A DNA stretch of 64,000 nt from Spirosoma validum (lineage in GTDB: Bacteria; Bacteroidota; Bacteroidia; Cytophagales; Spirosomataceae), in contig NZ_JACXAA010000003.1 in NCBI RefSeq assembly GCF_014699035.1, positions 310,001 through 374,000 on the forward strand. The letters are read 5' to 3'. Position numbers and translations under genes: made by a program. Below are positions 28,296 to 31,533 of the stretch, one piece after another. The notes beneath the pieces are model-generated. The model did no database searches and was not told the DNA's origin. It saw only the letters and a list, made by a program, of their open reading frames with translations. How positions within the stretch are numbered: the first letter of the stretch is position 1; each line of letters begins with the position of its first letter.

Positions 28296-29324
28296 CTACG
28301 TAACGGCCGATTCCAGCAGACGGATAGTACCCGCCGTTGCGTCGATTTCGGTATCGATGCCGAGCGGGACGGTGAATTTATCGCGGATGTGGCCGATCAT
28401 GGCACCGGAGAAAGCAGGCTTGTCCAGGGGAATGATGTGTTCAGTCAATACGTCGTCCAGCGTGAGAGAACCGTAGCCGCCACTACCCGGCCCGCAGTCG
28501 CTGCATTTGCCAAACACGAAGCCTGCCAGCTGAGTCAAAATACCCGCCAGTTTGAGCTGGGTCAGCATCCGGTCGACGCGGTAAATATCCTCGTGCGTAT
28601 CTTCCAGGAACAGAATGGTGTTTCGCCAGTCGGGGAGGTACGGCGAGCCGACCAAATGACTCAATACGGTGAGATTGCCGCCGACCAGTCGCCCGCGGGC
28701 CAGACCCGGTTTGATGGTGGTGATCCGATCCTGCGTTTGCGTGAGGTTATCGCCTTTCTCCGTGGGGTTCTTCATCGTCACGGTTTCACCTTCCATGAGC
28801 ACCCGCTTAAACCAGTCGACCGTGTAGGCGTTGAACGTAGCGGACCCGACTGGGCCATGTACAGTAACTAAGCCGGTCTTGGCGTATATGCCCAGCAGTA
28901 GGGCCGTTACGTCGCTGTACCCCATCAGGATTTTCGGATTACGTTGAATCAGGTCATAATCCAGCAGGGGCAACAGCCGGGCGCAACCCCAGCCGCCGTG
29001 AATAGCGACGATGGCTTTAACGCTCCGGTCATTGAAGAAGGCGTGAATGTCTGAAACCCGGTCGGCATCACGCCCGGCGAGGTAACCGTACCGGTCGTAA
29101 ATATGGGGTCCGAGTTTCGTCTGAAAGCCCAGCGCCTGAAGCGACTCCTGCGCAATCTTCACTGTTTCCTGACTATAGGCCGGAGCCGCCGGGCAAATCA
29201 GGCCAACGGTGTCGCCTGGGCGTAGGCGGGGTGGTTTTATAAGCGTCGCAGGTGGCTGGCTGGGTGCCAGTGAGAGAAACGGAGCCAGGCTGGTGGCTCG
29301 CAGAAACGAACGGCGAGAAGACAT
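28296..29324 (-). CDS. LD-carboxypeptidase-like (S66) protein with Tat-type signal
   Basis: 342 residues. Begins MSSRRSFLRATSLAPFLSLA, a twin-arginine-type signal. The S66 fold follows: PGDTVGLICPAAP, GGWGCARLLPLLDYD, and the nucleophile S137 in ILMGYSDVTALL. The glutamate is in FLEDTHEDIYRVDRML and the histidine in SGAMIGHIRDKF. The family cleaves the L-D bond between diaminopimelate and D-alanine in peptidoglycan tetrapeptides. The usual enzymes are cytoplasmic, so an exported form would act on periplasmic muropeptides. Monocistronic, convergent with the lipoprotein hydrolase. Confidence 0.9.
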   Translation of the reverse strand: MSSRRSFLRATSLAPFLSLAPSQPPATLIKPPRLRPGDTVGLICPAAPAYSQETVKIAQESLQALGFQTKLGPHIYDRYGYLAGRDADRVSDIHAFFNDRSVKAIVAIHGGWGCARLLPLLDYDLIQRNPKILMGYSDVTALLLGIYAKTGLVTVHGPVGSATFNAYTVDWFKRVLMEGETVTMKNPTEKGDNLTQTQDRITTIKPGLARGRLVGGNLTVLSHLVGSPYLPDWRNTILFLEDTHEDIYRVDRMLTQLKLAGILTQLAGFVFGKCSDCGPGSGGYGSLTLDDVLTEHIIPLDKPAFSGAMIGHIRDKFTVPLGIDTEIDATAGTIRLLESAVT

Positions 29325-29500
29325 TGGAAAGGCAGGAATCTAACGGTGCAGAAAGATAACCGAAAACAACGTAGTGGTCAAGCGGACTGTATGCGTTTTA
29401 GTCAGTAAAAAAGAGCCTTTGAGCGCCAGAGAAGAGTTTTTACAGCCACTAAAAACGGGCGAAGCAGCTTTGTTTAGACCCGACTTGTAACCTGTTCACA

Positions 29501-29553
29501 TACCAAATTGAGTATTTCGCCTACCAAATTGATCGATTGACATACATAATTCC
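29501..29553 (+). promoter_or_regulatory. three 11-bp direct repeats at 21-bp period, candidate operator
   Basis: TACCAAATTGA occurs exactly at 29501-29511 and 29522-29532. A 7-of-11 match (TACATAATTCC) occupies 29543-29553. The period is exactly two helical turns, so all three face one side of DNA. The array ends 21 bases before the -7 element of the gene at 29618. This geometry is typical of LytTR-type response regulators that are common in Cytophagales, but the regulator is not identified. Confidence 0.55.
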
Positions 29554-29574
29554 CGGGATGCAGTGCCGAACGCT

Positions 29575-29582
29575 TAGTTTTG
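29575..29582 (+). promoter_or_regulatory. -7 promoter element for the 29618 gene
   Basis: TAGTTTTG is an exact TAnnTTTG match, 35 bases before the ATG at 29618 and 21 bases after the direct-repeat array. The TTG at 29537-29539 is too far for a -33 element, so activation by a bound regulator is plausible. Confidence 0.45.
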
Positions 29583-29617: not shown

Positions 29618-30475
29618 ATGAAGTATTTCGTTTTGCTTTTCGTTCTCCTGGTCACTTTTCGGGGGAACGCTCAGATTACCGTTGGCAGCACGGGTATGGC
29701 TGTTGTTTCCGGTACGCCGATCAATGTCAATGGCTTGCTGCTCACCCCAGCCACCACCCTGACTATTGTCAACAATGGCATCCAGAAAAGCAGTACACCC
29801 CTGGCGAACAATCCGGGCATTAACCGTCTCTATCAGTTCAGCGCTCCCCTCCGGTTCTCAGGCATCGTCGGTATCAGCTACTTGCCGACTGAGCTCAACG
29901 GCTATACCGAGTCAACGCTGCAAGTGGCCTACACGCCCGAAGCGAGTGCAAACCTTACGGTTACGACCAGCAGCACCGTCAACACGGCTACGCATTCTGT
30001 ACGGAACCGACTGACGGACCAGAATCTATACGTAGTGACCGCTACGGCCCTCTCGGATCTATCGCCCATCGTTTACGCCCGACCTACTTCCGTCTACGGC
30101 GCAACGCCCTTTACGGTGGTAGTCGATGTGGTCGAACTAAACTCCGTAGCCAGCAGAGGCACCTTCACCGTGCGGGTTACCAAGGACCAAAAGCTTAACC
30201 TGGTCTTTGATCCGGGCTTAACGCGGGTTAATAATCGACCTGTACAAAACAGCGTGTGGAGCCTGAACAATTCGAACCCTAATTATTACATCCTCACCAC
30301 TTCGCAGTCTGTGGCAGCAGGTGACAAGTTGTCGTTTGGGTTAAATGGTAGCTTGAGCCCAGGGGCTTCTTCAGGCGTGATTACGATCAGCTCGACGGTG
30401 CTGCCAACCAGCGTTGTAGAAGCCAGGCTGAATAATAACATTGACGCCGATAAAGTGGAGTATTTCCAGCAGTAA
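29618..30475 (+). CDS. secreted beta-rich surface protein of unknown function
   Basis: 285 residues with a signal peptide ending FRGNAQ. The mature protein is rich in Thr, Ser, Val and Asn and appears to be all beta. It includes a segment TPATTLTIVNNGIQKSSTP and later VNNRPVQNSVWSLNN that suggest immunoglobulin-like or jelly-roll strands. It has no catalytic motif and no CHU_C or other sorting domain. The next gene starts 46 bases on and is also secreted, so they probably form one transcript. A possible operator with 21-bp-spaced direct repeats lies upstream. It looks like a structural or adhesion component; this is inference. Confidence 0.6.
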   Translation: MKYFVLLFVLLVTFRGNAQITVGSTGMAVVSGTPINVNGLLLTPATTLTIVNNGIQKSSTPLANNPGINRLYQFSAPLRFSGIVGISYLPTELNGYTESTLQVAYTPEASANLTVTTSSTVNTATHSVRNRLTDQNLYVVTATALSDLSPIVYARPTSVYGATPFTVVVDVVELNSVASRGTFTVRVTKDQKLNLVFDPGLTRVNNRPVQNSVWSLNNSNPNYYILTTSQSVAAGDKLSFGLNGSLSPGASSGVITISSTVLPTSVVEARLNNNIDADKVEYFQQ

Positions 30476-30521
30476 CGGCGCATCCGTGATTAATCGTTTC
30501 CTCTTTTTTACTCTTTACTCT

Positions 30522-31478
30522 ATGAAAAAGTTCGTTATCCTGTTTGCTGGTTTACTATTGATCTCTTTCTGTGGGTTCGCCCAGGTCAAAATCGGCGACA
30601 ACTTCACCGCTGTCAATGCCAATTCACTCCTGGAGCTGGAGAGCACGAATAAAGCGCTGCTCTTGCCCCGACTCAACCAGACCCAGATTGACGGAATGCA
30701 GAATGTACCTGCCGGGATGCTGGTTTACAACAGCACCACGAACCTGCTCAACATCCGCTCTAATACCGGCTGGATTACATTGGCGCAGGCAGCCGACGCA
30801 GCCTCGGCTACCAACCCCTGGTCAACTTCGAACACATCGACGGGACCAACAACCTATACCTATAGCCGGGTAGGTATTGATACCAACCAGCCTTTCGGCC
30901 AATTAGCCAACACTTCAGTCAATACCATTGGCTCGGATAAATACGGGGGCAATCCCGGTTCGCTATCCTGGGCTAGTACGCAACTAGGCTACGTAGGCCA
31001 GATCTATAACGGGGGTAGAGATAATAACTTCAATGGTCTGGCGGTTAAGGTTAATTCTAATAACGCTACTGCGCTAGACGTTTCCCAGGGGGGGCAAGGT
31101 AGTGAGGGCCAACCGCTACTTATCGTTAAATCAACGGGGAATGTAGGCGTCCGAACTACAAATCCAACCGAAGCCCTGGAAGTCAACGGCAATATAAAGT
31201 ACTCAGGTAACTTGCAGATGGGTTTAGTCTACCCCTACTCTGATAACGTAATAGCCGTCAACACCTACGCTGCGATACCGGTTCCATGCCCTGCAGGCAC
31301 TAAACTGATTGGTGGGGGGGGCGGCCAGCGTGATTTTGGGGCAGCTGGAGCCAGCCTTTCGATTACCTATAGCGGCCCCGACAAAGACGACACTAACAGG
31401 TGGTTACTCATTCTCGCCAATCGAAACAGCCAGGCCATCACCATTCGTACATACGCCATCTGTGCCAAAGTGCAGTAA
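30522..31478 (+). CDS. secreted tail-fibre-like repeat protein
   Basis: 318 residues from the ATG at 30522, which begins a good signal peptide (MKKFVILFAGLLLISFCGFAQ). The frame extends to 30441 but there overlaps the previous gene. The block LLLPRLNQTQIDGMQNVPAG followed by VYNSTTNLLNI is the Bacteroidota tail-fibre-like repeat. NVGVRTTNPTEALEVNGNIK resembles the GIGTTNPxxxLxVxGN motif of phage tail-fibre knobs. The C-terminal domain (GTKLIGGGGGQRDFG) is different, so no self-cleaving chaperone is seen. Likely a trimeric cell-surface fibre. A terminator-like hairpin follows. Confidence 0.7.
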   Translation: MKKFVILFAGLLLISFCGFAQVKIGDNFTAVNANSLLELESTNKALLLPRLNQTQIDGMQNVPAGMLVYNSTTNLLNIRSNTGWITLAQAADAASATNPWSTSNTSTGPTTYTYSRVGIDTNQPFGQLANTSVNTIGSDKYGGNPGSLSWASTQLGYVGQIYNGGRDNNFNGLAVKVNSNNATALDVSQGGQGSEGQPLLIVKSTGNVGVRTTNPTEALEVNGNIKYSGNLQMGLVYPYSDNVIAVNTYAAIPVPCPAGTKLIGGGGGQRDFGAAGASLSITYSGPDKDDTNRWLLILANRNSQAITIRTYAICAKVQ

Positions 31479-31502: not shown

Positions 31503-31533
31503 GAAGCCCTGCCTCATGGTGGGGCTTCTTATT
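31503..31533 (+). terminator. probable terminator after the 30522 gene
   Basis: Arms 31503-31513 (GAAGCCCTGCC) and 31518-31528 pair over 11 bases, two of them G-T, around the loop TCAT. The tail is TTATTTTG, a T-rich but interrupted run. It lies 24 bases after the stop. Confidence 0.65.

Follow-up and report, generated by a model that had tools for sequence, protein, structure and literature searches.

A triplet of direct repeats at a 21-bp period before a -7 box in Spirosoma validum, and its probable role as a LytTR-type operator of a surface-gene promoter

Upstream of a pair of genes for proteins with signal-peptide-like starts, the genome of Spirosoma validum carries direct repeats that return every two turns of the DNA helix and lead up to a promoter -7 box. 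The question raised by this locus is which regulator family would read such repeats, and whether it would switch the genes on or off. The stretch of DNA analysed, called the window below, comprises 64,000 nucleotides (bases 310001-374000 of contig C33 of the 8.2-Mb genome).

The array, its -7 box and the genes behind it

The three-unit array, with a 21-bp period, spans 29495-29557. It lies in an intergenic stretch of 293 bases, flanked on one side by a divergent LD-carboxypeptidase gene and on the other by gene 1 (29618). The features of the locus are as follows.

28296-29324, minus strand: LD-carboxypeptidase gene, divergent (open reading frame and Pfam)
29495-29515, plus strand: array unit 1, TTCACATACCAAATTGAGTAT (repeat detection and sequence reading)
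29516-29536, plus strand: array unit 2, TTCGCCTACCAAATTGATCGA (repeat detection and sequence reading)
29537-29557, plus strand: array unit 3, the promoter-proximal conserved variant, TTGACATACATAATTCCCGGG (repeat detection and site alignment)
29575-29582, plus strand: -7 box, TAGTTTTG, 38 nt from the unit-3 start
29618-30475, plus strand: gene 1, beta-rich protein with a signal-peptide-like start, 285 aa (open reading frame, Pfam, profile search and structure model)
30522-31478, plus strand: gene 2, protein with a signal-peptide-like start, fibre-like by eye, 318 aa
31503-31528, plus strand: terminator-like hairpin with a T-rich tail, 3' of gene 2 (consensus scan)

An earlier note on this DNA had described 11-bp direct repeats at a 21-bp period. 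The 11-mer TACCAAATTGA is indeed exact at 29501-29511 and 29522-29532, with the third unit at 29543, and the period stands, whereas the unit itself is longer than 11 bp: a 15-nt repeat was detected three times, at 29495, 29516 and 29537 (both spacings 21), and the repeating unit, which reads approximately TTSRCMTACCAAATT, begins 6 bases 5' of the 11-mer. The third copy, matching the 11-mer at 7 of 11 positions, had been called degenerate; in the alignment it reads instead as a distinct, conserved form, TTSRCATACAT, and not as a decayed copy, the CATACAT of unit 3 being invariant in all seven of the first-found sites. Single 11-mers with up to two mismatches occur in the window at the level of chance (23 found against 21.1 expected), and the signal is thus the spaced array rather than the word. 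A profile built from the units of 35 other sites, with the window left out and the -7 box unused, scored the window array at 36.8, and the next best score in the 64 kb, 6.0, was the same array shifted by one unit.

In Bacteroidota sigma-A promoters a -33 TTG box precedes the -7 box by about 20 nt. In the window, TAGTTTTG follows the repeats and agrees with the -7 pattern TAnnTTTG, whereas the sequence has no TTG at the -33 place, just as the earlier note had read both elements. Because the -7 consensus TAnnTTTG is placed at -12 to -5 in PMC9723704, transcription would start at about 29587, with a predicted leader of 31 bases.

The hairpin at 31503-31528 may close the two-gene unit 29618-31478 as a terminator-like element; the consensus scan returned five such sites in the 64-kb stretch against 2.3 expected. 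The one named relative of gene 1, found in a single scan that may omit the records of its own genome, belongs to Spirosoma endophyticum (44% identity across the C-terminal half). The same scan yielded no orthologue of the gene 1 and gene 2 pair whose promoter could be compared in sister species, and the Pfam scan gave no family for the gene 2 product.

A side observation concerns the C-terminal 140 aa of gene 1 (30053-30472), a module that recurs through the own genome. A threshold of E<=1 yields 86 matching places, of which 84 also pass E<=1e-10, and the proteins concerned, very unlike in length, mostly carry the module at their C-terminal end. Among the near-full copies, 59/78 terminate in EYFQQ or DYFQQ. 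No Pfam match was found in the 51 members scanned, and none among PDB sequences. The structure model of the module (pLDDT 90.6) predicts an Ig-like beta sandwich loosely resembling CARDB; that of the full 285-aa product was poor and was left unused. The module may be a surface-sorting or anchoring tail absent from Pfam.

Recurrence in the genome, the genus and the family

As the earlier note had proposed, the genome was searched for the repeat pair. The exact TACCAAATTGA pair occurs once in the 8.2 Mb, and two further places match with two and three mismatches, the reversed-pattern control giving 0 and 0. A wider pattern gave 97 matches in the own genome against 122 in its control, and therefore just those matches showing visible three-unit arrays were kept. 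Likewise, a loose pattern searched across the genus gave 13 matches in 9/36 genomes against 33 in the reversed control, so that just the three own-genome places (0 mismatches) and one place in the sister species G002 (1 mismatch) were retained. The strong arrays number six in the own genome, the window included, and one closely similar array in G002. Apart from the window they are as follows.

C20:23220-23308, own genome: array before a 309-aa protein, no Pfam family, fibre-like by eye
C1:17740-17828, own genome (also L051): array behind a LytTR gene
C15:42026-42114, own genome: array before a YadA-head/S74 fibre with a module protein
C11:851902-851989, own genome: array before a 771-aa beta-helix/SprB-repeat module protein, then an S74 protein
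C1:80045-80133, own genome: array before a 912-aa Ig-rich module protein, then a YadA-head/S74 fibre
G002:C3:115684-115771: sister-species array

With the exception of C1:17740-17828, the own-genome arrays precede surface-protein genes, and the pairing of a surface protein with a fibre-like protein given in the earlier note is in keeping with these gene kinds, gene 2 being without a Pfam family.

The -7 box was not used in finding the seven strong sites, and in all seven a TAnnTTTG-like 8-mer lies 38 nt after the unit-3 start; at +38 at least four of the six fixed -7 letters are present in 7/7, whereas other offsets from +18 to +69 reach at most 2/7. Mean pairwise identity among the seven sites is 0.74 for the unit cores and 0.60 for the -7 box, against 0.33 for the linkers, 0.32 for the spacer, and 0.27 and 0.30 for the flanks. 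Just the unit cores and the -7 box are clearly above background, and this contrast argues for constraint and not for block copying.

Two profiles, R1 (built from 7 sites) and R2 (from 16 sites), were derived. At E<=0.05, R2 matches 26/36 genus genomes, the relatives being weaker than the strong sites; at E<=0.002 it matches 20/121 family genomes, in 11/36 genera counting the own one, with E-values that are roughly calibrated and, for training sites, hold by construction. Four of the 16 family matches outside the genus (L270, L276, L277 and L278; L numbers denote loci) lack a good -7 box or array. In 29 genus rows outside the training set, the best -7 box lies at +38 in 14 and at +37 in 15, a count for which the model had itself used the -7 box. 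After reduction of 45 rows to 36 dissimilar sites, with rows scoring <19 dropped (L228 excepted), the unit consensus is TTCACcWACnAAatnnnGTYR, the linker GT also being favoured in this wider set. Two weak own-genome R2 matches were inspected: C22 is a degenerate array ahead of a membrane-protein and LytTR pair, and C11:38427 was rejected as chance-like.

The genes that follow the arrays in other genomes are varied. L223 and L244 share an order in which curlin-like genes come after a kinase, a LytTR regulator and the array; L219 has the regulator and array ahead of curlin-like genes with no kinase just upstream, and among these three L223 alone is Pfam-confirmed. In L221, L227, L232 and L233 the gene that follows the regulator-array unit is a different one, encoding a protein of about 500 aa, and in L268 and L275, from other genera, the array precedes genes that are curlin-like by eye. 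TetR genes follow some other arrays. Three Spirosoma genomes (L234, L240 and L251) were also observed to have the array ahead of a polyketide-synthase-like gene, with Pfam confirmation for L240 alone and the L234 frame broken in two. In the own genome, none of the three curlin matches has an array within its locus of about 3 kb. Two broader associations were rejected: an array common to all genes with the C-terminal module (four strong arrays in 70 regions holding 84 module places, some of these regions being cut at contig ends) and an array common to Peptidase_S74 fibre genes (17 places, three of them in array cassettes).

Known LytTR operators and the LytTR genes beside the arrays

The classic LytTR consensus is [TA][AC][CA]GTTN[AG][TG]; by inspection the unit consensus departs from it, GT being favoured and the remainder not. 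Functional LytTR repeats that diverge from the consensus exist, according to PMC6193735, and this misfit was therefore not taken as defining. LytTR operators are described in PMC11347149 as repeats in direct orientation, each about 9 bp long and 10-13 bp from the next, on two helical turns, and the window array has this geometry, with a period of exactly 21 and a core of 10-14 nt.

Three known systems were compared. In RcoM1 and CoxC, three direct repeats at a promoter are bound by the LytTR domain, with repeat spacers of 12-13 bp in RcoM1 and repeat intervals of 18-21 bp in CoxC (PMC11347149); the window shares the three repeats, whereas its sequence is TTSRCMTACC in place of TTCNNGCA or TTNNNGCN, and its promoter is of the Bacteroidota -7 kind where theirs is of the sigma-70 type and CoxC represses. 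In the LytTR Regulatory Systems (HdrRM, BrsRM and their relatives), direct repeats 11-13 bp apart lie just upstream of promoters, autoregulation is positive and repeats may diverge from the consensus, with Bacteroides examples of 11-bp repeats separated by 11 bp (PMC6193735). These systems have repeat pairs and a regulator with a membrane inhibitor, whereas the arrays here are triplets, accompanied by response regulators, several beside a TPR-HisKA_2 kinase, or by small receiver-less LytTR proteins. At AgrA P2/P3 a LytTR activator binds two direct repeats upstream of a suboptimally spaced promoter (PMC4227749), the promoter-proximal ones centred near -60, whereas the window has three repeats, of which the one nearest the promoter spans about -50 to -37 relative to the predicted start. 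On the whole the analysis largely supports the interpretation in the earlier note, and we regard the array as a probable LytTR repeat operator of new sequence, in which the units form a triplet like those of RcoM and CoxC. A literature search, with subscription papers mostly outside it, found no paper joining LytTR with Spirosoma or with Cytophagales.

LytTR genes were sought around each of the 40 R2 matches listed at E<=0.0024 that lie outside the own genome, in up to 12 kb per place, the open frames being searched with a locally grown LytTR profile; for the two checked, Pfam confirms LytTR. A LytTR gene lies within 1 kb of 20/46 arrays (19/40 outside the own genome), a count that includes L226 and L256, both left out of the consensus, the weak array L226 being one of the 20. 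In the own genome, which alone supplies the background rate, there are 56 LytTR matches and about 1.9% of positions lie within 1 kb of one. Arrays in related genomes partly reflect common descent and their gene layouts are not fully independent; when related loci were collapsed by common neighbours, 5/22 groups had a LytTR gene within 1 kb (P about 5e-5). The suggestion of a LytTR binder in the earlier note thus gains support from the array class, whereas the window array is itself unlinked: it is among the 26/46 arrays without a LytTR gene within 1 kb, the nearest on the contig being about 87 kb off.

Three layouts recur. The array stands directly behind a LytTR response-regulator gene in own C1, L219, L221, L223, L227, L232, L233, L244 and the weak L226; its promoter drives a small receiver-less LytTR gene in L229, L231, L235, L247, L252 and L255; and the LytTR gene is divergent in L218, L220 and L225. 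In L240 and L242 the LytTR gene is 0.6-0.7 kb off. Outside the genus a LytTR gene is present in 5/16 loci (L263, L265, L266, L272 and L273), in stretches of up to 3.1 kb, and L266, L272 and L273 look like one orthologous set. As a separate observation, the small receiver-less LytTR genes that have an array as their own promoter in L229, L231, L235, L247 and L252 are likely to be autoregulated switches, and four of these five stand behind a gene that by eye looks like an efflux pump of the RND kind.

The neighbourhood supports the LytTR family as the probable reader and does not point to an individual regulator. For the window array, the best candidate, and by our estimate a somewhat better than even one, is the LytTR response regulator at G000:C1:17874-18125. 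A TPR-HisKA_2 kinase adjoins it, with the same make-up as the L223 kinase; its open frame ends 22 nt short of an array of the same class that lies behind it; and the regulator is 50-52% identical to the regulators of L219, L223 and L244. On the strand of that array (C1:17740-17828) no open frame of at least 95 aa was found within 2.2 kb downstream. The array was observed to face some 100 bases of sequence that close with a hairpin and T run, which might represent a short RNA or the remnant of a lost operon. A link between LytTR genes and module genes in the own genome was tried and rejected as weak (within 1 kb for 3/20 small and 0/36 larger LytTR genes, against a background of 4.7% of the genome).

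Proposed mechanism and rival readings

We consider it very probable that 29495-29582 is an activator-dependent promoter whose operator consists of three tandem LytTR-family sites, one every two helical turns. Each unit would carry one LytTR protein, all of them on one face of the helix; the promoter-proximal unit 3, adjoining the polymerase, would stand in for the missing -33 box; and the bound regulator would keep RNA polymerase at the -7 box TAGTTTTG, thereby switching on the two-gene surface cassette 29618-31478. The proposal is made by analogy with LytTR operators in general, whose direct repeats are 10-13 bp apart and form a triplet in RcoM1/CoxC (PMC11347149, PMC6193735). The activator-dependent promoter suggested earlier is consistent with the units being in register, the last of them at the -33 place, and with the -7 box at 38 nt in 7/7 sites. 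LytTR binding, activation over repression and the identity of the regulator are what we infer from the analysis.

The alternative that survives best, although we think it unlikely, is that a LytTR protein acts here as a repressor, with the third unit blocking the -33 region. Unit 3 occupies the would-be -33 place, and repression by CoxC operates through a triplet of direct repeats that overlaps the -35 box (PMC11347149). However, the promoter has no -33 element for a repressor to cover, and the -7 distance is held at 37 or 38 nt, which is what polymerase contact would need. Activation by a LytTR protein is thus the reading that we prefer.

Another regulator that reads direct repeats two turns apart, for example one of the AraC type (XylS-like or hybrid-two-component-like), would make the LytTR genes its targets or parts of other circuits. 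The direct half-sites of AraC-type proteins can likewise be spaced at about 21 bp, and 1.2 kb from the C15 array lies the gene of a hybrid two-component protein whose end is of the AraC type. However, a locally grown AraC profile (three seeds) found AraC-type genes within 1 kb of 1/46 arrays, against 20/46 for LytTR, and conservation in the core runs almost unbroken instead of falling into two boxes ten bases apart; we therefore rate this reading as still less probable than repression. A recent duplication of promoter-plus-gene cassettes with no common regulator, to which the four own-genome arrays preceding cassettes with the common C-terminal module might point, is highly improbable, since flanks, linkers and spacers are near background identity in the seven sites whereas the cores are not, and the following genes in other genomes include curlins, LytTR genes and polyketide synthases.

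Returning to the LytTR operator, a wider and much more speculative proposal, which we hold to be doubtful, is that three 21-bp LytTR sites replacing the -33 box, 37-38 nt from the -7 box, form a family-wide design for surface structures, serving curlins in some species and adhesin-like cassettes here, in which receiver-bearing and receiver-less LytTR proteins would autoregulate the same arrays as a bistable surface-coat switch.

In conclusion, the array would provide a sequence code from which targets can be predicted across the genus, and it would connect two-component systems of the LytTR kind with genes for curlin-like and adhesin-like surface proteins. In a genome as rich in LytTR regulators as this one, the array names one kinase-regulator pair, that on C1, as the candidate for the surface cassette.
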